Shown piece after piece: positions 7,300 to 32,630 of a stretch of DNA of 32,630 bases (position 1 is its first letter; each line of letters starts with the position of its first letter). Below the pieces are notes generated by a model, which did not search any database, had not been told where the DNA came from, and saw only the letters and a list, made by a program, of their open reading frames with translations. Made by a program: the position numbers and the translations under genes. The stretch lies in IMG/VR virus record IMGVR_UViG_3300044825_002579, positions 1 through 32,630 of that record; one strand, written 5' to 3'. Source of the stretch: a virus.

Positions 7300-8583
7300 T
7301 TAGACTAGAAGGTCGTCTGCTTCGACGGTTTCTGGTTGAAGGAACAGGTCTGACAGATCGGTGGTATCGGCTCTCACCCCTGTCTCATCGGCCGTCAGAC
7401 CTGTTCCGAATCTTTTATTCAAGAAGTCGATGTATTCCCCTTCTGCTTCCATAATTATACAGTCGATGCCCTCTGCACGAGCGGCAACGGCCGTAGTTCC
7501 ACTGCCCGCGAATGGATCAAGAACAACACCACCGGGCGGTGTGATGTGCCGTATCAGATGCCTCAGAAGTCCAACTGGCTTTACGGTTGGATGCTCTGAT
7601 CCACCGCGGTCGGTTTTGCTGGCTTTCGGGTGATACAGTAAAGAAGGGCAATCGTCAGAGGGGAAAGCGTTGAAGAACCGTGCGGTGGAATTTGAATAAA
7701 CACGCTCAGGTTGCCTGGTCAACCCTACATCATCCGCTGAGTTGTTCACTTTTTCAGCCACAAAGCTGCCACCACTTTGCGGAAACAAATCAATTACTTC
7801 TGACGACCCATCGTGAAACAGATTGGCTGGGTAGCGACCGTTCTCATCAACAACTTGAACAGTAGACGCATTCATCTTGGAAAGGCCCCAAGATTGCCCT
7901 GATGTATCTTTTTCTCGCCTTCCTCTGTTCATGCTTCGTAGTTGATTTGCATCACTGACCGAATCGAGTGGAACCCGACATCCGTCGATGTTCACGGCAC
8001 CTACACCATGTTTGATGATGTTCGCGATATAGGTCTTCTCAGAGATCGGTCGCTGTGCCAGGTAGATCGGTTCCAAAGCTGGCTTCTGGGATTGGGTTCC
8101 ATACTTCCAGCCTTCCCATTGCTCGATTAGCGCAGGATCAGCGCCAAGTTTCGTGAGGTCACGTTCAACATCCTTAGCCTTGGGAAATCCATTACCGTAG
8201 CACCAGCCGTGCATCGGGTGCATAATGAAGCCAGCCGTTTCCATGGCGACGGCTTGCCAATGGCCGGTTCTTGCCCCGCTGAACGCAAAGCAGAAGCCAC
8301 CAGGAAGCAGAATATCGTGGATCAAGCGCCAGAAATCAGGGTCGCGCTCGATGCCGGTGCCATCCCAGGTGTGGCCCATAAAACCGGCAGAAAGACGTGA
8401 GAATGAACCATCGTTCCCTTCTGTCTTAGCGGCAGCAGCGCCCTTTTTACCGAAGCGCTTCTCGATACTGGTCAGTCCGTAAGGCGGGTCGCAGACCACC
8501 GAATGAACGCGGACACCCTGGTCGATCAGCTTCTTGAGGCTGATGCGGTTGTCACCGGGATATAGGGTCACTGCTGATTGCAC
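7300..8583 (-). CDS. DNA methyltransferase, DPPY type
   Basis: 427 residues, GTG start with AAGGA six bases upstream. The catalytic motif DPPY is at residues 32-35 and the SAM-binding motif DPFAGSG at ~356-362, preceded by PTVKPVGLLRHLIR. DPPY before FAGSG is the beta-class order of N6-adenine (or N4-cytosine) methyltransferases. No restriction endonuclease is nearby, so it is likely an orphan enzyme that protects or marks phage DNA. The last 25 residues carry two acidic-hydrophobic patches, TDLSDLF and the terminal DDLLV. Both recur at the ends of other proteins in this operon (see findings). Confidence 0.88.
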   Translation of the reverse strand: MQSAVTLYPGDNRISLKKLIDQGVRVHSVVCDPPYGLTSIEKRFGKKGAAAAKTEGNDGSFSRLSAGFMGHTWDGTGIERDPDFWRLIHDILLPGGFCFAFSGARTGHWQAVAMETAGFIMHPMHGWCYGNGFPKAKDVERDLTKLGADPALIEQWEGWKYGTQSQKPALEPIYLAQRPISEKTYIANIIKHGVGAVNIDGCRVPLDSVSDANQLRSMNRGRREKDTSGQSWGLSKMNASTVQVVDENGRYPANLFHDGSSEVIDLFPQSGGSFVAEKVNNSADDVGLTRQPERVYSNSTARFFNAFPSDDCPSLLYHPKASKTDRGGSEHPTVKPVGLLRHLIRHITPPGGVVLDPFAGSGTTAVAARAEGIDCIIMEAEGEYIDFLNKRFGTGLTADETGVRADTTDLSDLFLQPETVEADDLLV

Positions 8584-8594
8584 GGCGAATCCTT

Positions 8595-8607
8595 CACTCT
8601 AAACGTG
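8595..8607. promoter_or_regulatory. Operator copy before the methyltransferase gene
   Basis: CACTCTAAACGTG matches the palindrome outline CAC-N7-GTG, with a weaker core than most copies. It lies in the 78-base gap between thyX and the methyltransferase, just upstream of the AAGGA ribosome site. No convincing -35 is seen on the leftward strand, so it may stop or repress read-through rather than cover a promoter. Confidence 0.45.
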
Positions 8608-8661
8608 TTTTTACCGGTTGCCGTGCATCTTGGCAAGAAGTTATGCACAAGTCTGGGTTTC

Positions 8662-9615
8662 CTACGGCATCAAACCGATCTTCCGGAAGAACTCCATGGT
8701 CTCACGCTCAGACATCCCTTCTGGCTCAGGCCACCCGTCACTTTCACGATCGGGCTTCCAAGAAGAGAAATAGACTTTCAGTGCCTCGATCTCCATTCGG
8801 GAGAATGTGGCAGCATGAAGCCGGTAGTCCTCGAACGCTCGATAGGCAAACGGCACCCATGTTCGCACGATGTCACAGATCGTATCGGCATAGGTTCTGA
8901 TTTCGAACTGAGCATGGCTGTCAGCACGAAGACGCAGGAAATGGAACAGGTTGTGAAGGTCCGTCTTCCAGTACCACTGCGTGTAAATGTTGGTCGGCAG
9001 ATTCATTCGAGCGAGTTCCCGAGCCAGGCCAAGCTTTCCGGCTTCTTGGTCTTCCCGCATCAGTTCTTCATACGTCGCATAGGATCGAGCGGCATCGCTC
9101 CGAAGCATATCAAGAACAAGCTGCGCCTCTTCACCGGCCAGTACGGTCCCCCTGCCCTGGTTGTTAATCTGTGATTGTGCTGCAAGGTCTTCTTCGGCCG
9201 GGATGTAGAATTCGTTGTCCAAGATCGAGTAGCGGGCCGAGAGTTCATTCACGTTTGCGGTGCGGTGCCGAATCCACTGTCGAGCGACGAACACCGGCAG
9301 TTTGACGTGAAGCTTGATCTCGCACATTTCGAAGGGCGTGGAATGCCAATGGCGCATCAGGTAGCGGATCAACCCTTCATCCTGAGACACGCTCTTGGTG
9401 CCGTTCCCATAGCTAACACGAGCAGCTTGAAGGATCGCGGCATCATCGCCCATGTAGTCGATCACCCGAACAAACCCATGATCGAGCAAGGGGACGGCAT
9501 GGCCGAGGATGTTGTCGAGCGCTTCGACTTTGGTTCGAGTCAGGCGGTATTCGTCGGTAGCCATTGTTTTCCGAGTGGTCGGATAGAACGGGTCTGGATT
9601 GCTGATGTTACGCAT
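8662..9615 (-). CDS. thyX: Flavin-dependent thymidylate synthase ThyX
   Basis: 317 residues from ATG 9615 (AAGGA upstream); a longer in-frame opening overlaps the previous gene. The ThyX signature RHR-X7-S is present at residues 116-126 (RHRTANVNELSARY), with Asn at the position that is commonly Ser after RHRTA. Other family features are STPFEMCEIKLHVKLPVFVARQW before it and NLFHFLRLRADSHAQFEIR after it. It makes dTMP from dUMP using FAD, methylene-tetrahydrofolate and NADPH. It supplies thymidine for phage replication and fits the other nucleotide-pool genes of this operon. Confidence 0.95.
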   Translation of the reverse strand: MRNISNPDPFYPTTRKTMATDEYRLTRTKVEALDNILGHAVPLLDHGFVRVIDYMGDDAAILQAARVSYGNGTKSVSQDEGLIRYLMRHWHSTPFEMCEIKLHVKLPVFVARQWIRHRTANVNELSARYSILDNEFYIPAEEDLAAQSQINNQGRGTVLAGEEAQLVLDMLRSDAARSYATYEELMREDQEAGKLGLARELARMNLPTNIYTQWYWKTDLHNLFHFLRLRADSHAQFEIRTYADTICDIVRTWVPFAYRAFEDYRLHAATFSRMEIEALKVYFSSWKPDRESDGWPEPEGMSERETMEFFRKIGLMP

Positions 9616-9625
9616 GGCGGTGTCC

Positions 9626-9865
9626 TTATACAAAGAGGTCTGAGAGATCAGTGGATGAAGCCTTGGGCGCTGCCTTGGCCTTCGGAGCGGGACGCGGAGC
9701 CATATGCTCGGCCTTGAATTTCTCTTGGGCGCTGTCGATCGCCTCAGCGAGATCAACTGACAAGATACCGACAGACCACTTGGCATTGCGGCGGGCTTCG
9801 ACGCGCCAGAAACCGGCGCTCGGGACGCAGATCAACCTAAGCTGCCCTGGCGGTGGAAGGGTCAT
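9626..9865 (-). CDS. Unknown 79-residue protein with LFV C-terminal tag
   Basis: 79 residues from ATG 9865, which overlaps the upstream stop (ATGA); an ATG at 9877 is also in frame. The N-terminal half looks like a small beta domain (LRLICVPSAGFWRVEARRNA). It is followed by a helix, a Pro/Ala/Lys-rich linker (PRPAPKAKAAPKA) and the terminal STDLSDLFV. The linker-plus-tag design suggests the last eight residues are meant to reach a partner. TDLSDLF is repeated in the methyltransferase C terminus. Confidence 0.65.
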   Translation of the reverse strand: MTLPPPGQLRLICVPSAGFWRVEARRNAKWSVGILSVDLAEAIDSAQEKFKAEHMAPRPAPKAKAAPKASSTDLSDLFV

Positions 9866-10251
9866 TTGTTGACCCATCTACGGATCATCGAGACGGCGTT
9901 CTGGAAGCGATCTGTCTTCGCCTTGAGAGCCTGCTTGACGAGATCGTCGATGTCCTTCCCGCGGGCATCCCACTCAGCCTTGCACATGCCAAGCACGTTC
10001 AGCGCGAATTCCTGCGACGGGAAGACCCCAAGCACCTGGTCAAACTCAACCCGGTCAATGCTCCATCCGTTGCTCTCCAAGACCACCGATTTCCGGACGG
10101 ACTTTGCCCTGACGACGCGCCACCGGATCGAGCGGCTATAATCATGGTCACAAGCGCTGTTCCAGCCGACTGCCATTGAACCATCGCCGACGATGAGCCA
10201 GTCACCGGGCTTGATGTCAGCGGCCGTATAGAAGCCTTTGAAGTCGGTCAT
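9862..10251 (-). CDS. Unknown 129-residue protein
   Basis: 129 residues from ATG 10251, in an ATGA overlap with the gene before it. Not recognised. The first half is beta-rich (IKPGDWLIVGDGSMAVGWN, RWRVVRAKSVRKSVVLES) and may be a small barrel. The C-terminal half is helical and charged (CKAEWDARGKDIDDLVKQ). It ends in an ATGA overlap with the 79-residue tagged protein, so the two are translated together. Confidence 0.65.
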   Translation of the reverse strand: MTDFKGFYTAADIKPGDWLIVGDGSMAVGWNSACDHDYSRSIRWRVVRAKSVRKSVVLESNGWSIDRVEFDQVLGVFPSQEFALNVLGMCKAEWDARGKDIDDLVKQALKAKTDRFQNAVSMIRRWVNK

Positions 10252-10415
10252 TCTTCTATCCTCGCTCGGTTCAAGCGTCGACGTTCGAGCCGTCGCGAAA
10301 GCAGCTTGTTCGCAGCACATTTGGTCCACCCGGCCAGCGGACGACGCGACCAGAGTTCGTAGAAGTGGCCGTGTTTCTCAGCACTCTTTTTCGGATCACG
10401 AGTCCAAGGTCTCAT
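10248..10415 (-). CDS. Small basic protein
   Basis: 55 residues; ATG overlaps the stop of the 74-residue gene (GTATGA) and the stop overlaps the next ATG. The sequence is strongly basic, with an Arg-rich end (LLSRRLERRRLNRARIEE) and aromatic residues near the start (GHFYELWSRRPLAGW). It could bind nucleic acid; that is only suggested by charge. Overlaps on both sides support it as a real gene. Confidence 0.6.
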   Translation of the reverse strand: MRPWTRDPKKSAEKHGHFYELWSRRPLAGWTKCAANKLLSRRLERRRLNRARIEE

Positions 10416-10636
10416 ACCAGCAACTCCGTCAGATCGACGACCGAGACGACCGGCGAATAGGCGAAGTGTTCACCAATGGCCGAGACGATCGAGGGATGCC
10501 GCTTCTGGGCACAGATGAAGCCCTCATCAAGGTTACGTCGAATATGAGCCTGGAACTCGCCGTTGTTAAACTGGATGTTGCAGGCGATGATTCCATTGGC
10601 GCGCATCGCAGCTTCGAGGTCTTCGAGACGAGTCAT
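10412..10636 (-). CDS. Unknown 74-residue protein with LLV C-terminal tag
   Basis: 74 residues starting in an ATGA overlap with the upstream gene. Predicted helix-strand-helix (RLEDLEAAMRANGIIACNIQFN). It ends VVSVVDLTELLV, one of the seven LLV/LFV C termini of this operon; TTG CTG GTA encodes the last three residues, and the GTA overlaps the next ATG. No family recognised. Confidence 0.62.
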   Translation of the reverse strand: MTRLEDLEAAMRANGIIACNIQFNNGEFQAHIRRNLDEGFICAQKRHPSIVSAIGEHFAYSPVVSVVDLTELLV

Positions 10637-10962
10637 GCAGCAACCTCAAGCTTACAGCGCATCCAGTGATTTTTAAGGCTGTTCCACGCATCACGAGACA
10701 TCGGGATCACGTCGATCCAGTCGCCGTCCGCATTCATAACATCAGCCCACCAGTCGCCGCCGTATTCATTGATCGACTGACCAAACTTGCCGATGTGGCC
10801 GCAGATTTTTGCGCGCCGAAGAACTGTGATGACAGACGAATATCCTTTGGTAAAGATCACCGGCTCGCACAGGTCCAGCCGTTCGCCGTCCTTGGTCTTG
10901 CGGATGACGCAAAGCCGCAGCCCGCGCGCCTCGATCGGGATACCAAATTCATTCTCATTCAT
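10633..10962 (-). CDS. Unknown 109-residue protein
   Basis: 109 residues, ATGA overlaps at both ends. Beta-rich with many aromatic residues (SINEYGGDWWADVMNADGDWIDVIPM), suggesting a compact domain. No catalytic motif is evident. It lies between the macro-like gene and the 74-residue tagged gene. Confidence 0.6.
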   Translation of the reverse strand: MNENEFGIPIEARGLRLCVIRKTKDGERLDLCEPVIFTKGYSSVITVLRRAKICGHIGKFGQSINEYGGDWWADVMNADGDWIDVIPMSRDAWNSLKNHWMRCKLEVAA

Positions 10963-11327
10963 TTCTTCGCTTCCTCAAGGATGCGCCATTCGACCGAGTA
11001 GGTGACGTTCTCAGGCAGACCGGCTTTGATGAACAGCGGTTTGATCTGGTCGACCGTGTAGCCCGCCAGACCGCAGCCGATGGGTGTCAGCAGGAACTTC
11101 ATCCGGGGATTGTCCCGAGCGAACTGAACGAAGGTATTGATGTGCGCCTCGATCACCCAGAGAGGCAACACTTCGAGTTCGAAGCCCTTGGTCGGGATTG
11201 CATACGAGCGGCCGGTCAAGCCCTGACCGATGCCGCGCTTTGCCCCATAGACGCGCTTGGCATAGAGCGCCGCACCTTTACCGTGCCGCCCAGCCAGGTT
11301 CGAACCGAAGACGAAGATGTCGCTCAT
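10959..11327 (-). CDS. Macro-domain-like protein (A1S_2505-type)
   Basis: 122 residues from ATG 11327, overlapping the upstream stop; a longer opening to 11363 lacks support. The sequence FVFGSNLAGRHGKGAALYA, then GLTGRSYAIPTKG and LTPIGCGLAGY, matches the phage-related A1S_2505 group I remember, which has the glycine-rich loops of macro domains. Macro domains bind or hydrolyse ADP-ribose and its conjugates. Phage versions could counter NAD or ADP-ribose based defence, but no activity can be claimed from sequence alone. Confidence 0.72.
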   Translation of the reverse strand: MSDIFVFGSNLAGRHGKGAALYAKRVYGAKRGIGQGLTGRSYAIPTKGFELEVLPLWVIEAHINTFVQFARDNPRMKFLLTPIGCGLAGYTVDQIKPLFIKAGLPENVTYSVEWRILEEAKK

Positions 11328-11689
11328 ACCAGCAACTCCATGTGCTTCGCCCGAATGCGCCACAGTTCCTTCACCTGGCAGACCGAGTTCAGGCTTCCGA
11401 ACTTGTCGCTCAGACCGGTCGACTCCAGCAGTATCGGGATCAGGTGCGAGTTCTCGTCGATGTATTGATCCCAGAGGCGCGCATACAGGGCTTCAACCTC
11501 TTCCCGGTTGACCGCGGGAACCCCCTTTGCCCGACGCCACTCGTGGCCGGTGGAGCCGTCAGGCAGCACCTTGGCAGCTTGATACTGCTCTTCAATGCTG
11601 CGGCCGTTCACCTTGGCGCAGAACGCCGAGAAGCGCTTGTCACCGTGCGTCGAGCATTCGCGGAAAGGGGCTACACCGACGCGGATCAT
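11324..11689 (-). CDS. Unknown 121-residue protein with LLV C-terminal tag
   Basis: 121 residues; ATG overlaps the upstream TGA. The pattern FSAFCAKVNGRSIEEQYQ, then WRRAKG, ARLWDQYIDENSHLIPILL and LSDKFG, is one I have seen in phage and bacterial proteins encoded near macro-like genes, without a known function. Mostly helical. It ends AKHMELLV, with GTA TGA overlapping the start of the macro-like gene, so the pair is translationally coupled. Confidence 0.65.
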   Translation of the reverse strand: MIRVGVAPFRECSTHGDKRFSAFCAKVNGRSIEEQYQAAKVLPDGSTGHEWRRAKGVPAVNREEVEALYARLWDQYIDENSHLIPILLESTGLSDKFGSLNSVCQVKELWRIRAKHMELLV

Positions 11690-11856
11690 TGCAGTCCGAC
11701 CTTCGGGATCAGTCCATCCTTGGATGGCATCAACCTACGCCGCATGAGCATGGACGCGGAGTAGTTCGCCTGAACATGGGGTGGCATGGCTGCGATGACT
11801 TCCTCGTCAGTCTGCTTCTCATACTTGTGGTCAGGATTGGTCGGTTTATCGGTCAT
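11686..11856 (-). CDS. Small unknown protein, 56 residues
   Basis: 56 residues linked by ATGA overlaps on both sides. N-terminal half is acidic and helical (KYEKQTDEEVIAAMPPH); the C-terminal half is basic (LMRRRLMPSKDG). No family recognised. It lies between two LLV-tagged proteins and is itself untagged. Confidence 0.6.
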   Translation of the reverse strand: MTDKPTNPDHKYEKQTDEEVIAAMPPHVQANYSASMLMRRRLMPSKDGLIPKVGLQ

Positions 11857-12227
11857 ACGAGCAGCCCCTCATCCTCATCAGCGGCGGCAACAGGCTTCCC
11901 GCCCACCGGCACAACCTTCACCCCAAGACAGCGTTCCAGGGCCTCGTGCAGCGTGTCGCAGGGGCCTGAGCGCACCCAGTCGTAGTAGAACTTGTTCAGC
12001 CTGATCCCGCATTCCCAGGTGCCTTCTTCGGCTTCTAGGCGATCGTTCATCTTCGCCTTGGAGTTGGGCGACCGGATGTAAATCCGATACATGCCAAACT
12101 CTTCCATCAACTTCGCCAGATCGTCGATCGAGGCTATCTCCATGCCCTGAAAGGGCTTGAAGCTATCCAAGGTCACATGGTCGATCGGCTTTTGTGCTGA
12201 TTGAACCCGCTTGGCTGCTCTCCCCAT
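11853..12227 (-). CDS. Unknown 124-residue protein with LLV C-terminal tag
   Basis: 124 residues from ATG 12227. The start has only a weak ribosome site and lies 13 bases after the previous stop. A basic N terminus (MGRAAKRVQ) is followed by a mixed domain (EEFGMYRIYIRSPNSKAKMN, TWECGIRLNKFYYDW). A flexible Gly/Ala/acidic linker then leads to the terminal DEDEGLLV. The domain is not recognised. Confidence 0.65.
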   Translation of the reverse strand: MGRAAKRVQSAQKPIDHVTLDSFKPFQGMEIASIDDLAKLMEEFGMYRIYIRSPNSKAKMNDRLEAEEGTWECGIRLNKFYYDWVRSGPCDTLHEALERCLGVKVVPVGGKPVAAADEDEGLLV

Positions 12228-12239
12228 TGCAGCATCCGA

Positions 12240-12626
12240 TCAGACGAAGAGATCGTCGAAGCTGGTTCCGACAAACGCGCTCATGGGCTTATCTTCACCC
12301 AGAAGATCATGGTCAGCGTCTTCCATGATGTCGAGCAGCGGACCTGGATGACCGCCACCCATCTGAGCCGAAGCCAACGCTGGGCTGAACCCACTATCTC
12401 TCTGCGCGACAACACCGCCGTCAGGACGAAGGATGCCGCTCGCCTCGTCGAAGATCAGATCGGTCTCTACGGCCTTACCACCTGGATAGGCAGCGTCGAG
12501 TTGTTCAAGCAGAACCGCTTTTTGGAGCGCCAGGCTCATCATCGGCCCATCTGACCAGAGTCGCGTCTCAATAACCGGGTTGCCTTTGGTGGCGCGGATC
12601 GCAGCTTTCAGGGTGCCGAGTTTCAT
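12240..12626 (-). CDS. Unknown 128-residue protein with LFV C-terminal tag
   Basis: 128 residues, ATG overlapping the stop of the 53-residue gene. Folded N-terminal part with alternating strands and helices (KLGTLKAAIRATKGNPVIE, LQKAVLLEQLDAAYPGG). A long Gly/Pro-rich, probably disordered segment follows (QMGGGHPGPLLDIMEDA) and ends SAFVGTSFDDLFV. The disordered tail before the tag resembles the linker in the 79-residue tagged protein. Confidence 0.65.
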   Translation of the reverse strand: MKLGTLKAAIRATKGNPVIETRLWSDGPMMSLALQKAVLLEQLDAAYPGGKAVETDLIFDEASGILRPDGGVVAQRDSGFSPALASAQMGGGHPGPLLDIMEDADHDLLGEDKPMSAFVGTSFDDLFV

Positions 12627-12784
12627 TCTTCGTCCTCAAGGTTCATGATCGAAGCGAACCCATCGTTCCACGAAAAATGGTCGGCTTCTTCGGTTTGCAG
12701 ATCGTAGGGGTTGGCGCTCTCAGGCTTTCCAGCGATCGCGGCGTCAGCACCCTCTTCATAGGGATCGGTGTCCAGGGTTCTCAT
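12623..12784 (-). CDS. Small acidic protein, 53 residues
   Basis: 53 residues. The ATG overlaps the stop of the GapR-like gene (GTATGA) and its TGA overlaps the next ATG. Very acidic (DTDPYEEGADAA, TEEADHFSW, ending NLEDEE), with no basic cluster. The run of aromatic and acidic residues suggests an interaction peptide or DNA mimic, but nothing specific can be assigned. Confidence 0.6.
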   Translation of the reverse strand: MRTLDTDPYEEGADAAIAGKPESANPYDLQTEEADHFSWNDGFASIMNLEDEE

Positions 12785-13047
12785 ACGAGCAACGCATTCT
12801 CGTAGAGTTCGAGGACAGCTTCTTCCTCAGCGATATCATCCGGCTTGCGCTTCCGGCGCTTGAGGACCAGGCGCATAACCTTGGTGTCGTAGCCCCGACC
12901 CTTGGCCTCAGCCATCAGTTCCTTTTTCTGTTCAGCAACGTCCTTCGCTTCGCTGTCCAGTTGCTCGAAGCGTTCGACGAACTGACGCAGTTCATCCGCT
13001 GTGACGGCATAAGGATCGTCGCCGCTGTTGTGACCTTTTCCAGCCAT
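12781..13047 (-). CDS. GapR-like nucleoid protein (DUF2312)
   Basis: 88 residues. The pattern ADELRQFVERFEQLDSEAKD, then KKELMAEAKGRGYDTKVMR and VLKRRKRKPDDIAEEEAVLE, matches the GapR/DUF2312 family, a small coiled-coil protein common in Alphaproteobacteria that binds overtwisted DNA ahead of polymerases. A phage copy could help replication or transcription of phage DNA, or compete with host GapR. The C terminus ENALLV differs from the ALG-type ends I recall and matches the tag of six other proteins in this operon. Upstream lies an operator at 13072-13084. Confidence 0.85.
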   Translation of the reverse strand: MAGKGHNSGDDPYAVTADELRQFVERFEQLDSEAKDVAEQKKELMAEAKGRGYDTKVMRLVLKRRKRKPDDIAEEEAVLELYENALLV

Positions 13048-27426: not shown

Positions 27427-27689
27427 GCATCAAGGATTTGTTGATCGGCATGAGAATTGCCAATGAGGAACGCGACCGGCTTGAGCGTATGGGAATAGTT
27501 CAGCCAGAGGATGATATCGCAAATGGGTATCCCAACAGGGGAACTCAGAGCCGTGATCAATTTGAAAAGATTTTCGGATCATGGGGCGGTCCTGTTGCTG
27601 GTATCATGATCAGGCCCGAGATAGGAATCGAAGTTGAATACAGAAGTGGAAAGCGGGTTACCTTCATCGTGGCATCGGTCAAAACCTGA
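27423..27689 (+). CDS. Unknown 88-residue protein
   Basis: 88 residues. A helical start (LIGMRIANEERDRLERMG) and strands at the end (PEIGIEVEYRSGKRVTFIVA). Last gene before the ATTTCTCYGAC repeats; no hairpin terminator is obvious directly after it. Confidence 0.58.
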   Translation: MSIKDLLIGMRIANEERDRLERMGIVQPEDDIANGYPNRGTQSRDQFEKIFGSWGGPVAGIMIRPEIGIEVEYRSGKRVTFIVASVKT

Positions 27690-27693
27690 TCCT

Positions 27694-27839
27694 ATTTCTC
27701 CGACGCCCGCCCAGGTGCAGATTTCTCCGACGCCCGGCCGGATTTTATCCTGGTCGGGTTTGTATATTTCTCCGACTTCGCCCTATTTCTCCGACTCCCG
27801 CCCAGGTGCAGATTTCTCTGACGTGCAGATTTCTCTGAC
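27694..27839. repeat. Six copies of ATTTCTCYGAC
   Basis: Copies at 27694-27704, 27721-27731, 27766-27776, 27785-27795, 27812-27822 and 27829-27839, separated by GC-rich words such as GCCCGCCCAGGTGCAG. The last two read TCTGAC, and one is followed by GTG, which makes half of the operator. Two more copies lie inside the end of the ATPase gene (near 25504 and at 25552-25562). Related to the GATTTCTCTGGGGTC repeats at 19474-19576. Confidence 0.78.
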
Positions 27840-27979
27840 GCCCGGCCAGGCGCGGCCCAGGATCGAGGTGGCAGGGCCTTGCAGCTTCCCCCAGGCGCGC
27901 GGGCACATGCGCCCAGGCTCACACGTATATAGGCGCGCATAGGCGGGATTCCATGATCCGATCAGCGGAAACGCATTTT
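27840..27979. other. GC-rich gene-free stretch
   Basis: No gene seen. Very GC-rich (CCCGGCCAGGCGCGGCCCAG, CAGGCGCGCGGGCACATGCG) and then CACACGTATATAGGCGCGC. It resembles the 19577-19710 stretch in composition, in the preceding repeats and in lying just before an operator. Confidence 0.55.
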
Positions 27980-28021
27980 CACATCTGACGTTTTTTCGCT
28001 TGCCGAATCACTTCTGACGTG
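27980..28021 (+). promoter_or_regulatory. Tandem operators and promoter of the first small-gene cassette
   Basis: A degenerate operator CACATCTGACGTT (27980-27992), then TTTTTTCGCTTGCCG and a full operator CACTTCTGACGTG (28009-28021), followed by TTAGTGTC. The block from 27985 to about 28030 recurs nearly unchanged at 30208-30253. TTGCCG may be the -35, with the operator in the spacer. A leader of about 60 bases follows before the first gene. Confidence 0.62.
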
Positions 28022-28089
28022 CCCTTAGTGTCAGGGTAAAGCGGCGGCATGGGGCCGACTGCGCTAGGGATCACAAAGGGACTCACAAG

Positions 28090-28905
28090 ATGAAATTCGA
28101 ATTCGCTGAATCCAACTATGAAGGCGACCTTAAATTTGGTGGATCACTGACTATCACAGCGCAAGGCGCGCAAGAGGTGGAATCGCTGATCAAACATTTC
28201 CGGCTTTTCAATGATATGTCTGACGTTTCCATTTTGCAGGCAAGAATTGAAGCGCTGCAAAAGCAAACCATTTCCCATACCCTGCAATCTGATAAACGAC
28301 CGGTTTATGAAGTTTCAAGCGCACTCAGCGCTGATTTTACTGCGCCTTATAAGAAATGGGCTTTCGATAACTTCGGGTTTGACGGAGTCTTCCCGGATTT
28401 GGAGATTCCCCGCAAATGGGACGGTTTGATTCATACAAACTATCAAGCCCGACTCTACACCGAAGGGGAACATATCTGTTTTGAAGCTTTCACTTCGGCA
28501 CAACCTTGGAACGGTAAGACCGCGCAAGCTTATGCGGAATGGCTTGTAACGGATTACATTGGCGAAGAATTCGGAATGCGGCGGCATGAGCCTGAATTTA
28601 TCCATGTTGGCAATAACATGATGAAACCGAACCCGAATTACCTTAAGCGCCACCGCGCGACTCCTGCGGCATCAAATGCCAGTCTCAAACGTGCTTTCTT
28701 TGCATGGTGGCTGGAAAACCGCGCCAATGAAAAACAAAAAGCGATTGTCGCGGGGAACCGGGAAATTGCTAAAGGCGCAAGCTATATGAGTGCTTTTGAC
28801 TTTGAACGGTTTGAAAGCAATATCTATTACGGGCGGAAACTGGACGGTGACGGGAAAACGACGGATTACAAATCCATTTCCTTTGCCAAATTCGCGGAAT
28901 TGTGA
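28090..28905 (+). CDS. Unknown 271-residue protein
   Basis: 271 residues; AAGGGAC about 11 bases upstream. No family recognised. Mixed alpha/beta with many aromatic residues; segments include PYKKWAFDNFGFDGVFPDLE, IPRKWDGLIHTNYQARLY and AFFAWWLENRANEKQKAIV. No nuclease, ATPase or methyltransferase motif found. First and largest gene of a cassette of very small genes. Its codons (many AAA, GAA and TTT) look more AT-rich than those of the tail genes, by eye. Confidence 0.62.
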   Translation: MKFEFAESNYEGDLKFGGSLTITAQGAQEVESLIKHFRLFNDMSDVSILQARIEALQKQTISHTLQSDKRPVYEVSSALSADFTAPYKKWAFDNFGFDGVFPDLEIPRKWDGLIHTNYQARLYTEGEHICFEAFTSAQPWNGKTAQAYAEWLVTDYIGEEFGMRRHEPEFIHVGNNMMKPNPNYLKRHRATPAASNASLKRAFFAWWLENRANEKQKAIVAGNREIAKGASYMSAFDFERFESNIYYGRKLDGDGKTTDYKSISFAKFAEL

Positions 28906-28907
28906 TC

Positions 28908-29108
28908 ATGGCAACATGGCATCAATCGAAAGCGGGACTCGGTGGATTGTATCAACCTGATGCGAATTCATGGAAAGTCATTTCTGACAATCCGGGGGAA
29001 TTCGCTTCTGCAATCCTGAAACGCACAAAGCGGGAAGCGGAGAAGCTTTCGCGGCGCAATGGTGGGAAACTTATTCCCCCGACACGTTACAAACCGAAGG
29101 GAGTCTGA
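28908..29108 (+). CDS. Small basic protein, 66 residues
   Basis: 66 residues from ATG 28908 in a TGATCATG junction. Basic (ILKRTKREAEKLSRRNGGKL, ending PTRYKPKGV) with an N-terminal aromatic/Gly part (TWHQSKAGLGGLYQPD). May bind nucleic acid; no family recognised. Confidence 0.58.
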   Translation: MATWHQSKAGLGGLYQPDANSWKVISDNPGEFASAILKRTKREAEKLSRRNGGKLIPPTRYKPKGV

Positions 29109-29110
29109 TC

Positions 29111-29338
29111 ATGCAACGCGAATATTTCACTGAATCAATGGAATTCGACAAACCGGAAAAAGGATATAAGCTTGTGCGTCAAATCGAATTGGTGACGCTG
29201 CAACAGGCAAAAGCAAATCGTTTCCTTGTACGTTATGGGAAACAAGTCAAAGCAGGGTTGTCCTATTCTGAGGCTGCAACCGAATTTGGCGCTTGTCTCA
29301 TGCATCAAGAATGCTGCAACGGATCAATGGAGTCATGA
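29111..29338 (+). CDS. Small unknown protein, 75 residues
   Basis: 75 residues; GGGAGTC ahead of a TGATCATG start. N-terminal strands (GYKLVRQIELVTLQQAKANR), then a helix and a Cys cluster near the end (FGACLMHQECCNG). No family recognised. Confidence 0.58.
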   Translation: MQREYFTESMEFDKPEKGYKLVRQIELVTLQQAKANRFLVRYGKQVKAGLSYSEAATEFGACLMHQECCNGSMES

Positions 29339-29340
29339 TT

Positions 29341-29649
29341 ATGCAGAAACCCGCTTTCTATCGCGTCCTTATTGGGCTTCCGGGTTGTATGCCAAATTCG
29401 AATGCGGTTTACCAATGGGACAACCGCCGCAGTATGGCGCAAGGGATTAACTCAATCCTTGACGATTACGGATTCACGCAACGGAATCGGCGACAGGTCA
29501 ATCTTGTGGATATGTGGCGCTATATCCAAAGCGGCGGCAAGAAAGGCCATTTTGTGATCCGGGGAAATTGCGGCAATCCCTGCAATGCTGAATTCCAGCA
29601 AATCACGGAGTCGGAATTCGAAACTGAATCAGAGTATGAGGATTCCTGA
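29341..29649 (+). CDS. Unknown 102-residue protein
   Basis: 102 residues from ATG 29341 (junction TGATTATG, with TGGAGTC upstream). Contains GLPGCMPNSNAVYQWDNRRS, HFVIRGNCGNPCNAEF and an acidic tail. Three Cys (GC, NC, PC) could bind metal. Not recognised. Confidence 0.58.
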   Translation: MQKPAFYRVLIGLPGCMPNSNAVYQWDNRRSMAQGINSILDDYGFTQRNRRQVNLVDMWRYIQSGGKKGHFVIRGNCGNPCNAEFQQITESEFETESEYEDS

Positions 29650-29651
29650 TC

Positions 29652-29825
29652 ATGGAAATGACAAATCTTTGGGCATGGCGGGATAGCGTGACGCATGGAT
29701 ATCGATGGGTCAAGGAAAGGGAATGCAAAGCCGGTGACGCGAATTCATGGCATACGATTTTCCGCAAGGATGAGCCACACATTCAATTCAGGGTTTCCAA
29801 GGTGAAGCCTAAGCCGATTTTCTAG
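29652..29825 (+). CDS. Small unknown protein, 57 residues
   Basis: 57 residues from ATG 29652 in a TGATCATG junction. Trp-rich (NLWAWRDSVTHGYRWVKERE, NSWHTIFRKDEP) and basic at the end (VSKVKPKPIF). It lies at the end of the cassette, before a strong hairpin. Position and junction support coding. Confidence 0.55.
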   Translation: MEMTNLWAWRDSVTHGYRWVKERECKAGDANSWHTIFRKDEPHIQFRVSKVKPKPIF

Positions 29826-29855
29826 TCCCTTCCCCTCAGTCGACCGACTGCCCTT

Positions 29856-29895
29856 ACCGCCGCTTCCCTTGATCGGGTTGCGGCGGTTTCCGTTT
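29856..29895 (+). terminator. Terminator of the first small-gene cassette
   Basis: ACCGCCGC (29856-29863) pairs with GCGGCGGT (29880-29887), with an inner CCC/GGG pairing and the tail TTTCCGTTT. The same hairpin occurs at 31941 and 32038 after the next cassette. Confidence 0.82.
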
Positions 29896-29898
29896 AAG

Positions 29899-30177
29899 GG
29901 GCTGCACCCGTGCCCCCATGCCCAGGGCTGCACCCGTGCCCCTCTGAGGCCTGCCCTGCCCCCAGGCCCAGGGCTGCACCCGTGCCCCTCTGAGGCCTGC
30001 CCTGCCCCCAGGCCCAGGGCTGCACCCGTGCCCCTCTGAGGCCTGCCCTGCCCCCATGCCCAGGGCTGCACCCGTGCCCCTCTGCGGCCTGCCCTGCACC
30101 TCGGCCATGGGCTGCACCCGTGCCCCTCTGAGGCCTGCCCTGCCCCCATGCCCAGGGCTGCACCTGGTCGCGCCTGG
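29899..30177. repeat. GC-rich tandem array, 46-bp units
   Basis: GGGCTGCACC recurs at 29899, 29925, 29971, 30017, 30063, 30109 and 30155: one 26-bp step, then five of exactly 46 bp. Each unit reads GGGCTGCACCCGTGCCCCTC, then TGAGGCCTGCCCTGC and a variable end (CCCCAGGCCCA, CCCCATGCCCA or ACCTCGGCCAT). Long open frames on the minus strand are products of the repeat and are not genes. The array lies between the cassette terminator and the next promoter. Confidence 0.88.
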
Positions 30178-30202
30178 TCGAAAGGAAAAAGCACGTCAGA
30201 GT

Positions 30203-30244
30203 CACTTCGGACGTTTTTTCGCTTGCCGAATCACTTCTGACGTG
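30203..30244 (+). promoter_or_regulatory. Tandem operators and promoter of the second small-gene cassette
   Basis: A degenerate operator CACTTCGGACGTT (30203-30215) and a full one CACTTCTGACGTG (30232-30244), with TTTTTTCGCTTGCCG between, as at 27980-28021. The leader after it folds a hairpin GCCCGGC-GGGGAT-GCCGGGC (about 30267-30286) before the first gene. Confidence 0.62.
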
Positions 30245-30308
30245 TCCTTAGTGTGTCTATGGAAAGCCCGGCGGGGATGCCGGGCGGGATCAAGCTAGGG
30301 GCTAGAAA

Positions 30309-30398
30309 ATGGATATCATGACTTTGGTTTACTATGGCGCGGTTGCTGGCCTTGCCTTTGTTGCTTGGGTTCTCGCCAAAGAATTTTTGGACCTGTGA
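30309..30398 (+). CDS. Tiny membrane protein, 29 residues
   Basis: 29 residues from ATG 30309 with GGGG upstream. MDIMTLVYYGAVAGLAFVAW is almost entirely one membrane helix, ending VLAKEFLDL. First gene of the second cassette; no other gene fits the space. Confidence 0.55.
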   Translation: MDIMTLVYYGAVAGLAFVAWVLAKEFLDL

Positions 30399-30412
30399 AG
30401 GGAGTCGGGATC

Positions 30413-30619
30413 ATGGACAAGAAAACCTTTAAAGACATTTCCCGCGCAACCCGTGCAGCAAAGCGTTTCGCTTTGTCCTTTGGAAATGAGTTTTTCGCAA
30501 TCATGCAGAATTGCGACCAGTTCGAATCTTTCCTGTATCACTATGCCGGATTGAACCTTGATATCCCGCAAAAGGTTCGGGATTTGGTTTGCGACAACGC
30601 TTTGACTGTTAGGGTTTGA
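30413..30619 (+). CDS. Small unknown protein, 68 residues
   Basis: 68 residues from ATG 30413; GGGAGTC with GGATCATG, a variant of the TGATCATG junction. Helical and basic start (DISRATRAAKRFALSFGNEF), acidic later. No family recognised. Confidence 0.58.
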   Translation: MDKKTFKDISRATRAAKRFALSFGNEFFAIMQNCDQFESFLYHYAGLNLDIPQKVRDLVCDNALTVRV

Positions 30620-30621
30620 TC

Positions 30622-30825
30622 ATGCAAACCGTTCGAATTCAGGCAACCACATATAACGCCGCATGGGTCACGATTGCGGAAAGCGATTCTTTCGCGATTG
30701 AGGCTGCAAGCGAATTCGGGTTGACCCTGATTGACAAGGGTCAATTCCTGAAAGCCGGGGAAATCGCTCATTCCTATGTGACGGATTACAAGACTGCAAA
30801 GCGTTTCGCGCAACACGTCGAATAG
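30622..30825 (+). CDS. Small unknown protein, 67 residues
   Basis: 67 residues from ATG 30622 in a TGATCATG junction. Mixed strands and helices (TVRIQATTYNAAWVTIAESD, FAIEAASEFGLTLI). The end TDYKTAKRFAQHVE shares the short word TAKRFA/AAKRFA with the preceding protein. Confidence 0.58.
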   Translation: MQTVRIQATTYNAAWVTIAESDSFAIEAASEFGLTLIDKGQFLKAGEIAHSYVTDYKTAKRFAQHVE

Positions 30826-30839
30826 GGGGAATTCTGATC

Positions 30840-30947
30840 ATGATCTATCTTGCAGCCGCTTTCGTTGTCATGCTGATCGGTTGGCCCTTGGCAATCTATG
30901 CCGAAGGATATGCAAACCGCCAAATGAAAAAGGATATCCGGAAATGA
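30840..30947 (+). CDS. Tiny membrane protein, 35 residues
   Basis: 35 residues from ATG 30840; GGGGAATTC lies upstream, again with TGATCATG. One membrane helix (IYLAAAFVVMLIGWPLAIYA) then a basic tail (NRQMKKDIRK). Overlaps the next gene by ATGA. Confidence 0.57.
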   Translation: MIYLAAAFVVMLIGWPLAIYAEGYANRQMKKDIRK

Positions 30948-31159
30948 CTCGGAATCTTGAACCGGATGAATTGAAAGCCTTGCAAGACTTCGCAAAGGAA
31001 TATGGCAGGGAATGGAAGCAATATCTATTCGCCGCTTGGCTTTCATACTCTTACAAGGGAAAGCATATGGGCGGGGCAGATACCGGCATTCTGCGGCAAA
31101 TCCGCAATGAATTCGGAAATGAATGGTTGCATAAATTCAAACTTCCTAAAGGTGAATGA
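30944..31159 (+). CDS. Small unknown protein, 71 residues
   Basis: 71 residues from ATG 30944 (ATGA overlap). Helical, with LEPDELKALQDFAKEYGREW and LRQIRNEFGNEWLHKFKL. No family recognised. Confidence 0.6.
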   Translation: MTRNLEPDELKALQDFAKEYGREWKQYLFAAWLSYSYKGKHMGGADTGILRQIRNEFGNEWLHKFKLPKGE

Positions 31160-31160
31160 A

Positions 31161-31502
31161 ATGACTCGCGATTTGCTGACTGATCCGAAGTTTTCGATTG
31201 CGCGGGATTTTTTCGTGCAAGCCTGTCAGGCTTCCCGCCAATGGGATTCCCTGTTGAGTGCGGCCCTTGCGAAGTATGGTGACCACGGGCCACAAATCAG
31301 CGGAGTCGGTCGGGATCACTTCCCGGATGATGTGAAAGCAGAATTGCGGAAAGCGGCTGGCTGGGTTTCCCTTAGTTCTGGCATTGCATGGGATGCACGG
31401 CCAAAGGGAGTCAGGAATGAGACAATGCGCAAGCTTGCAAGGGCAGTCGCAACCCGTGACGGATCAGGATTCTACGGGCCACAACCGGAACGGGGCAATT
31501 GA
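31161..31502 (+). CDS. Unknown 113-residue protein
   Basis: 113 residues from ATG 31161; AAAGGTGAATGAA upstream gives a fair ribosome site. Helical N-terminal part (KFSIARDFFVQACQASRQW), Gly-rich centre, basic near the end (RNETMRKLARAVATRDG). No family recognised. Confidence 0.6.
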   Translation: MTRDLLTDPKFSIARDFFVQACQASRQWDSLLSAALAKYGDHGPQISGVGRDHFPDDVKAELRKAAGWVSLSSGIAWDARPKGVRNETMRKLARAVATRDGSGFYGPQPERGN

Positions 31503-31504
31503 TC

Positions 31505-31681
31505 ATGGCTGATCATTGGACAGAAGGCTATAATGCGGGATTGCAGGGCATTCCCTATTCCGGAAACCCATATGAGGGGAAGCAAGGCTCAACCGCTTGG
31601 GCATTCGGTTGCGGGGAAGGCTTGAAGGAACGCAACCGGAAAAGCTTTCAGGATATCATTGCAAATCTGAGGGAGTCTTGA
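31505..31681 (+). CDS. Ribosome-modulation-factor/CrpP-like small protein
   Basis: 58 residues from ATG 31505 in a TGATCATG junction. EGYNAGLQGIPYSGNPYEGK followed by AWAFGCGEGLKERN matches the outline of the Rmf/CrpP fold: GY/F-x-A/G-x2-G, then NPY, then W-x2-G-x2-E. Bacterial Rmf dimerises 70S ribosomes in stationary phase; plasmid-borne CrpP has been reported to modify ciprofloxacin. What this phage copy does is unknown. Many tiny phage proteins share this fold. Confidence 0.62.
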   Translation: MADHWTEGYNAGLQGIPYSGNPYEGKQGSTAWAFGCGEGLKERNRKSFQDIIANLRES

Positions 31682-31683
31682 TC

Positions 31684-31911
31684 ATGGCTGATCTACAGGC
31701 CTTGAAACTTGCAGCCGACAATTCGCATTCTGCCTTTGAAGCGCTTTGCCTTGGTCATGGCTACGCTGATAAATGGGAAGCCTTGCGCGCCATGGATCAA
31801 CCCGACTCCTGCCCTGCCCTGCCTGCCCTGCAAGCCTCATGGGATTCCCACGTTGCCGCAACCCATGCCTTCTATCTTGCCAGAGACGGGGCTAAAGGCT
31901 TTCTAGGCTAG
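31684..31911 (+). CDS. Unknown 75-residue protein with repeat-like insert
   Basis: 75 residues from ATG 31684 (GGGAGTC and TGATCATG). Helical (LQALKLAADNSHSAFEALC, HVAATHAFYLARDGAKG). The codons for SCPALPALQ (about 31807-31835) are TGCCCTGCC repeats like the array that starts right after the gene, so the tandem repeat seems to extend into coding DNA. Confidence 0.58.
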   Translation: MADLQALKLAADNSHSAFEALCLGHGYADKWEALRAMDQPDSCPALPALQASWDSHVAATHAFYLARDGAKGFLG

Positions 31912-31940
31912 GCCTGCCCTACGGTCGACCGATTGCCCTT

Positions 31941-31981
31941 ACCGCCGCTTCCCTAGATCAGGGTTGCGGCGGTTTCCGTTT
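31941..31981 (+). terminator. Terminator of the second small-gene cassette, copy 1
   Basis: ACCGCCGC (31941-31948) / GCGGCGGT (31966-31973), inner CCCT/AGGG, tail TTTCCGTTT. It lies 30 bases after the last gene stop. Confidence 0.82.
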
Positions 31982-31984
31982 GAG

Positions 31985-32275
31985 GGGCTGCACCCGTGCC
32001 CCTCTGAGGCCTGCCCTACGGTCGACCGATTGCCCTTACCGCCGCTTCCCTAGATCAGGGTTGCGGCGGTTTCCGTTTGAGGGGCTGCACCCGTGCCCCT
32101 CTGAGGCCTGCCCTGCACCTCGGCCATGGGCTGCACCCGTGCCCCTCTGAGGCCTGCCCTGCCCTGCACCTCGGCCATGGGCTGCACCCGTGCCCCTCTG
32201 AGGCCTGCCCTGCCCTGCACCTCGGCCATGGGCTGCACCCGTGCCCCTCTGAGGCCTGCCCTGCCCTACCCTGTA
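31985..32275. repeat. GC-rich tandem array, 46- to 51-bp units
   Basis: GGGCTGCACC at 31985, 32082, 32128, 32179 and 32230; the last steps are 46, 51 and 51 bp. Units read GGGCTGCACCCGTGCCCCTC, TGAGGCCTGCCCTGCCCTGC and ACCTCGGCCAT. The same family as the 29899-30177 array, with an extra CCTGC. Minus-strand open frames here are repeat products. Confidence 0.87.
32038..32078 (+). terminator. Terminator, copy 2
   Basis: Same hairpin as at 31941, ACCGCCGC (32038-32045) / GCGGCGGT (32063-32070), in the second 97-bp unit, so transcription from the cassette meets two terminators in a row. Confidence 0.78.
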
Positions 32276-32630
32276 GACCCTTCCGCCTGGATGACGCGGA
32301 ATCCGAATGCGCCATGGGGGAGTCCCTTCGGTGACCATGCCCCATGCAAACCCGCAAGGGTGAAACCCGTGGACTCATGACCCTGCTACATGGTGGCCGG
32401 TGACGTGTAGCAGGGTGGATCATGGGGGATGATGCATCATGTAGCAGGGTATAGGCGGGGCCTGGACTAGGGTCTATGGGATAAGCGTTACATATCAATG
32501 CCTTAGACCTGGATCATGGGTGATCATGCGGCCGGATGCATCATGAGGCGCGAAAGATAATCGTTTAATATCAATGACTTGGCTACGGGTCCTTCCCGAG
32601 GGGGGTCGCTGGGGGGCGGGGACACAGACC
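32276..32630. other. Gene-free right end with short repeats
   Basis: No convincing gene in this stretch. CCCTGCTACA (32381-32390) and TGTAGCAGGG (32406-32415) form a 10-bp inverted repeat, and TGTAGCAGGG recurs at 32440-32449. A 25-bp direct repeat starting GATAA and ending ATATCAATG-x-CTT occurs at 32480-32504 and 32556-32580 with four mismatches. Words GATCATG, GATGCATCATG and TGATCATG recur around them. This looks like a protein-binding or packaging region. Confidence 0.7.
32586..32625. other. G-rich tract, possible cos region
   Basis: ACGGGTCCTTCCCGAGGGGG, then GTCGCTGGGGGGCGGGG, directly after the second direct repeat. Similar G-rich tracts lie near the cos site and small terminase gene of many HK97-like phages, from memory. 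The terminase gene itself would be beyond the window, so this is a tentative call. Confidence 0.35.

Follow-up and report, generated by a model that had tools for sequence, protein, structure and literature searches.

In bacteria, the C-terminal tail of the single-stranded DNA-binding protein (SSB), known as SSB-Ct (DDDIPF), follows a disordered linker, ends freely with acidic residues preceding hydrophobic ones, and is bound by many enzymes. The β-clamp motif QLxLF is short, hydrophobic and often C-terminal, occurring on DNA-acting proteins, and in bacteriophage T4 the proteins gp43, gp33 and gp55 reach gp45 by hydrophobic/acidic C-terminal peptides. The closest known case is bacteriophage T7, in which the SSB gp2.5 (ADEDGDF) and the primase-helicase gp4A (SNDTDF) have a common acidic tail ending in DF. 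The gp4 tail is described as binding basic patches of gp5 (PMC12593628, PMC5997990), and the tail of gp2.5 has been linked to contacts with the polymerase and with the primase-helicase (PMC5686142). Here we analyze seven protein C-termini ending in LLV or LFV that are encoded in a 32,630-base virus record (IMGVR_UViG_3300044825_002579, analyzed over its whole length and referred to as the window), which is related to the RcD cluster (PMC8601537), a set of Casjensviridae phages that infect Rhodobacter capsulatus. These endings are the local form of something larger: a common C-terminal peptide of phage-specific flavour that is carried by the SSB and several other proteins of one phage. The LLV/LFV ends are probably a docking tail of SSB type in the form particular to one group of phages, and would bring DNA-processing proteins to the replication machinery, the docking itself being a step that we infer from sequence.

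The original prediction listed seven leftward genes in the window, with products ending in DDLLV, SDLFV, TELLV, MELLV, EGLLV, DDLFV and NALLV, and every one of these endings is present as claimed. Exactly these seven genes end in L[LF]V among the 509 stop-to-stop frames of the window with at least 40 codons. In other phages the ending occurs on 8 of 1015 proteins, in 14 background proteomes; two of these, G001 and G002, carry related tags themselves, and Phobos and PspYZU01 among them are near-duplicates. The comparison of 7/61 window genes with this background gives a Fisher p of ~6e-6, where 61 is the number of genes found by our own gene caller, which included six of the seven tagged genes. 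The same caller supplied the genes of unannotated records, and in a test 45 of 56 annotated stops were shared. Frame count and background frequency together reject chance as the origin of the seven endings, and the background rate is far from one at which seven would be unremarkable, a concern raised along with the prediction.

The window is without the replication half of its own phage, and no SSB was found in this fragment. Whole proteomes of Casjensviridae-like relatives show an ending that is common to unrelated genes within a phage and different between phages: DLLG in Ruegeria phage V18, DDEV in Enc34 and Chi, DDEL in Aeromonas phage phiWae15, EDGLI and EDLI in Phobos, DDVV in G005, DMI in G004, and SFF and DLF in Curvibacter phage PCA1. 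The ending is mostly acidic and then hydrophobic; in PCA1 it is nearly uncharged, with AQSFF on the SSB and PASFF on the protein upstream of Cas4. Its usual bearers are the Gp2.5/Enc34-type SSB, the Cas4-like exonuclease (DUF2800), the small protein upstream of Cas4 (confident N-terminal helix and uncertain remainder in an AlphaFold2 model, mean pLDDT 62.8) and the product of the gene that follows the major capsid gene. Depending on the phage, it is also found on methylases (often), integrase, 3'-5' exonuclease, primase and small early proteins. The capsid, protease and large-terminase families of the proteomes compared have no such tail, while portal proteins also end acidic in several phages. 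The flavour differs even between phages of one host genus, since the Salmonella phages Chi and SLP-22 use DEV/DDV and DDI/DEI, respectively, the latter shared by the SSB, the upstream protein and the small terminase of SLP-22. It varies likewise among phages of Rhodobacterales, with LLV in the RcD phages, DLLG in Ruegeria phage V18 and DDIA/DDVI in Loktanella phage pCB2051-A. Scans of viral contigs with single proteins and with an SSB alignment found nothing.

Within-phage sharing was quantified in a discovery set of 16 phages, from which the near-duplicates RcIroh (IR) and PspYZU01 were dropped and in which RcMcLean and RcCWillis, as well as Chi and Enc34, were kept. In this set 22 other proteins resemble the SSB tail of their own phage, whereas SSB tails from foreign phages are resembled by 4.27 on average, and none of 20,000 permutations reached 22; SSB and Cas4 tails are shared at p=0.0015. 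A new set was then drawn from a viral-contig scan (the best 80 of 194 relatives) and reduced from 74 to 47 non-redundant loci by leaving out L175, L176, L187 and loci with an SSB-core identity of at least 70%. The sharing between SSB and upstream protein is confirmed on these new loci (own 12.16, permuted 5.56, 0/20,000, n=25), with identical last two residues in 11/25 (0.67 expected) and identical last three in 6/25 (0.25 expected). Sharing also extends to SSB and Cas4 (p=0.005, n=47), SSB and primase (p=0.015, n=28) and Cas4 and primase (p=0.039, n=28), while the pairings of SSB with VRR nuclease (p=0.16, n=33) and helicase (p=0.35, n=24) show none. When the three loci related to discovery phages are removed, the upstream protein (0/20,000, n=23), Cas4 (p=0.020, n=44) and primase (p=0.034, n=27) retain their sharing with the SSB. 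As a separate observation, the gene after the major capsid gene (29528-29866 in L002, and its homologues), which occupies what we take to be the position of lambda FI, has the flavour of the SSB tail across 15 phages (own 13.2, permuted 6.96, 0/20,000, n=15), a possible link between replication and packaging; the gene that follows it shows no sharing with the SSB tail (p=0.94).

In the window, all seven tags are encoded on the minus strand. The N6/N4 DNA methyltransferase (gene 7300-8583) ends in DDLLV (7303..7317), with DELLV in its RcMcLean and RcIroh homologues and ETLLV in that of RcCWillis, and its tail contains an internal TDLSDLF (7342..7362) that is invariant across four aligned homologues. 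The same word closes a small protein (gene 9626-9877; TDLSDLFV, 9629..9652), as had been noticed earlier, although this protein has 83 residues and reaches the 79 first assigned to it only from a later start. A five-sequence alignment of this protein has a variable linker followed by TDL[SG]DL[FL]x, and homologues end in DLFQ, DLFI or DLLK; judged from them, the final valine is not essential to the tag. The 74-residue protein (gene 10412-10636) ends in VDLTELLV (10415..10438), for which the homologue in the distant operon L008 has ITDLSELLT, and the 121-residue protein of phrog_9995 (gene 11324-11689) ends in MELLV (11327..11341), read from the window alone. The EGLLV of the 124-residue protein (gene 11853-12227; tag 11856..11870) corresponds to EGLLV, EELLV or TDLSELLG in homologues. 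For the 128-residue protein (gene 12240-12626), which ends in DDLFV (12243..12257), homologues match over the N-terminal 71-83 residues, continue with a long variable linker and finish with DDLFV or DDLLI, or with VTILDL in L008. The seventh protein belongs to the GapR family (gene 12781-13047, PF10073) and ends in NALLV (12784..12798), which is NALLV or EALLV in three RcD phages.

These alignments show conserved bodies, linkers that vary in length and sequence, and ends that are conserved again. Homologues in related phages retain the ending while their linkers change, rather than losing it at random. Selection on the C-terminal peptide, also proposed from the window, is supported by this end conservation and by the codons, for in five window genes the final five codons differ from those of RcMcLean and RcCWillis by 24 synonymous and 9 non-synonymous changes, a count that is weakened by pooling two related comparisons per gene. 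The GapR-family protein provides a control. Viral contigs supplied 82 relatives of GapR, comprising the best 80 of 257 hits and two further loci; none of them ends in L[LF]V and 77 have an ALGM-like end, so that the ALLV end, found in the window and the three RcD phages, is rejected as the ordinary ending of its family; on these comparisons GapR is the sharpest case for selection on the peptide. It had further been suggested that an overlap of GTATGA with the next start explains at most the final valine, and that in only four cases. Four genes do end this way, but the overlap involves a likely start in only three (11324, 11853 and 12781), gene 10412 overlapping only a 55-residue frame. Such overlap is rejected as the cause of the ending because several homologues in RcMcLean and RcCWillis keep Val or Ile through the non-overlapping codons GTC, GTT or ATC.

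Beyond the operon, the tag was followed through the proteomes of RcMcLean (92 proteins), RcCWillis (96) and RcIroh (98). The tyrosine integrase of RcD phages has the similar ends TDLSDIFGDTELLV and TDLSDLLWDGEPTLLV, their C5 methylase ends in DGLIV, their 3'-5' exonucleases end in SELLI and VDLLV, and an AlpA-like excisionase ends in GLLV in RcCWillis only. TDLS-words also occur within the integrase tails of related phages. The distant operon L008 retains several of the genes, with the ends TDLSELLG, TDLSELLT, TDLGDLLK and TILDL, and its GapR is without the tag. Because of these RcD and L008 ends, the core of the tag is nearer [TS]D-L-x-[DE]-L-[LF] than LLV. Some methylase tails contain two to three copies of the motif (DLSELLG, DLTSLLD and DALLV in L035; YSDVLG and YADVLG in L032), which suggests that binding could be multivalent. 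The tag bearers span PF01555, PF10073, PF10991, DUF2800, PF16473, PF00145 and the tyrosine integrases. The record G006, whose SSB ends in DDLFI, was considered as a possible left arm for the phage of the window; this is unsupported, with a tetranucleotide correlation of 0.92 against 0.927-0.935 for the halves of RcMcLean. Separately, positions 27600-32340 of the window contain a dispersed G+C-rich repeat. The word GCCTCAGAGGGGCACGGGTGCAGCC occurs 9 times in the window and a shorter one 11 times, and counts over stretches of RcMcLean, RcCWillis, RcIroh and G006 found neither.

The SSB that links these phages is of the Gp2.5/Enc34 type. The RcMcLean protein matches PF10991 with 53 bits (cut-off 26) as well as phrog_112, and PF10991 exceeds the cut-off in 10/10 named phages searched. 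An AlphaFold2 model of the L174 SSB matches 5odl and 1je5, the Enc34/T7 fold, and its last 21 residues have a low-confidence pLDDT of 37-57, as expected of a disordered C-terminus. In 90 records with this SSB, a family-A polymerase is present in 51, a phrog_1252 type in 31, both in 0, and neither was found in 8; the phrog_1252 type, which the RcD phages have, is B-like only by a Pfam hit below the cut-off. Tails are shared in both polymerase groups between SSB and upstream protein (0/20,000 each, n=16 and 20) and between SSB and Cas4 (p=0.007, n=33; p=0.029, n=21), in a test that pools discovery and new records and in which the upstream gene of seven discovery phages was assigned by hand. Across L135, L137, L140 and L173-L252, SSB and primase share their tails in family-A phages (p=0.003, n=19) and not in phrog_1252 phages (p=0.46, n=19). 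The polymerase as sole receptor is weakened by sharing in both groups, and one reading is that the primase docks on the polymerase as in T7 while the remaining tags dock on a receptor that both groups possess.

Under the docking-tail reading, the peptides would bind one common receptor, and the tagged enzymes would be held at the replication/recombination site of the phage, where they would compete or exchange with the SSB tail. The tag of the window would place the methylase, the GapR-like protein and the small proteins on phage DNA, and the post-capsid protein would perhaps bring proheads to replicating DNA. The putative receptor is probably phage-encoded, because the flavour is a within-phage property, follows core-gene phylogeny only weakly and is unlike in two phages whose hosts belong to one genus; the differing flavours of the two Salmonella phages make a host receptor less likely. 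As a first guess, the receptor may be the β-sheet groove of the SSB itself, with polymerase, helicase and terminase as other candidates. The groove is proposed because, in the crystal of the Enc34 SSB, the C-terminus occupies the groove of an adjacent molecule (PMC5686142). A common binding partner had been predicted, with a clamp, a PDZ-type protein, ClpXP or an SSB partner named as hubs; the idea of a partner gains support, but only the SSB connection does so among these hubs, since a tail of this kind is present on the Gp2.5-type SSB that the phages themselves encode, and a conserved host hub fits poorly. We also put forward, as a bolder reading that is somewhat less likely than not, a private C-terminal address code for each phage of a large family, in which one co-evolving, phage-encoded receptor would gather a dozen unrelated proteins at the phage DNA and a new gene would join by gaining about five residues. 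Proteins of replication, recombination, methylation and integration, nucleoid-like proteins and, via the post-capsid protein, the prohead would be gathered in this way.

Several results weigh against these proposals. Eight tag families have a within-phage similarity of 3.77 against 2.14 when permuted (0/1000), with p=0.18 for ten control families, and these eight were picked after the tails had been inspected. An unbiased scan of 517 family pairs, in which RcCWillis and Chi were dropped where RcMcLean and Enc34 were present, gives 8 pairs at p<0.01 with 5.2 expected; its top four by z pair the SSB with the upstream protein, primase, polB and Cas4, and the mean z is 0.51 for tag-tag pairs and 0.01 and -0.06 for the others. 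The sharing of SSB with polB was unpredicted (p=0.002, n=9, in the unbiased scan; p=0.066, n=14, in the new loci), though the polymerases have no tag. In the new loci, upstream protein and primase show no sharing (p=0.43, n=19), and random frames have a mean z of 0.42 (sd 0.92), slightly above zero, so that composition may add a little. The small terminase subunit shows no overall sharing (p=0.33), no clear sharing is seen for the primase and Cas4 of SLP-22 or in Serratia phage Scapp and APSE-1, and the RcD-phage SSBs end in SLLDF or SLFDI, close to LLV and not the same. With regard to the receptor, SSB-tail distance is uncorrelated with SSB-core distance (r 0.01-0.06, not significant), giving no support to the SSB groove, and its correlations with other cores are 0.12-0.28 for Cas4 (p 0.014-0.074), 0.20 for polB (p 0.08), 0.09 for VRR, 0.07 for helicase and -0.02 for primase. 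Neither these Mantel tests nor a column test, which used redundant sequences, singled out a receptor.

The tails could instead be acidic DNA mimics, each tuning its own protein's DNA binding with no common receptor. This is unlikely: many tails are indeed strongly acidic, portal proteins end acidic in several phages and share with the SSB at p=0.014 in the unbiased scan, and PMC5686142 describes double-stranded DNA binding by Enc34 SSB that lacks its tail, yet the mimic explains neither the within-phage sharing of the last two or three residues nor the nearly uncharged PCA1 ends and the post-capsid tag. Binding of the tags to a conserved host hub, such as the sliding clamp, ClpXP or another protease, or a host SSB partner, is similarly improbable. 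The tagged proteins are mostly DNA-acting, phages are known to target host replication hubs, and one Erythrobacter phage protein ends in DDDIPF, the exact host SSB-type hexapeptide. Nevertheless, none of the seven window tags has the Q at the first position of the β-clamp penta/hexapeptide, the LAA-like end of the ssrA-type ClpXP degron or the terminal I/L-P-F of SSB-Ct (0/7 each), and the flavours are unlike between Chi and SLP-22 and among the Rhodobacterales phages. The Erythrobacter protein, a 137-residue product of phage R22L (L257, 11687-12100) that ends in YDDLDDDIPF and has no Pfam match at E 0.01, is a possible host SSB mimic in its own right.

Sharing by descent or copying, through paralogous small genes, gene conversion or 3'-end exchange, has a slim chance of being the explanation. 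The bodies of the seven proteins had been called unrelated, which holds for the methylase and GapR and is uncertain for 9626, 10412 and 11853; these three may be distant paralogues, as profile comparisons among them give E 0.005-0.012 with a probability of 3-7%. In Phobos, the same codons encode the tails of the SSB and the post-capsid protein, which may therefore have been copied; this also counts against the docking reading. Elsewhere, tail codons differ within the window, V18 and Enc34 (as had been claimed for the last three codons in the window, except that genes 10412 and 11324 are identical, TTG CTG GTA), the bearers come from different families, and copying alone would not hold tails alike after divergence. 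That the tag is a packaging signal, loading proteins into the head for injection with the DNA, is very doubtful: the post-capsid gene shares the flavour strongly and some phages inject antirestriction and nucleic-acid proteins, but SSB, primase and exonucleases act in replication and are not known to have a role in the virion, and the capsid, protease and large-terminase families are without such a tail.

If the docking reading is true, the tail is a membership label readable from sequence that would point to those unknown proteins of a phage that work at its DNA, and it would account for the way in which accessory genes of phages connect to replication. It also makes testable how phages without an annotated clamp organise replication and packaging, and short linear motifs that co-evolve in bacteria would have a clean model in the receptor and its tags.

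Compared with the described systems, the tails resemble SSB-Ct in their acidic and then hydrophobic C-terminal residues, but there one tail bearer meets many receptor bearers, whereas here the tail bearers are many. The β-clamp motif has a similar LF pair and differs in its Q, which the seven tags lack; they have acidic residues instead, and the ending varies from phage to phage. T4 gp45 offers the parallel of several unrelated phage proteins reaching one hub by C-terminal peptides; it differs in that no clamp gene is annotated in RcMcLean, where no profile search for a clamp was made. The full-text literature searched, which largely excludes subscription journals, contained no account of such tail sharing. 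The likeness to T7 is closer, since the SSBs of the phages compared have the Enc34/T7 fold, and the common terminal residues of SSB and primase that characterize T7 are found in polymerase-A phages and not in phrog_1252 phages. In T7, however, none of 12 other proteins ends in DF (14 read), whereas here the tail is also present on methylases, integrase, GapR, exonucleases, the post-capsid protein and unknown proteins, with a flavour for each phage and two polymerase types. By analogy, the window's group works like the T7 shared-tail system and is not a member of it: SSB-type tails common to phage proteins are known from T7, and what appears to be new is their spread to many families with a flavour particular to each phage.

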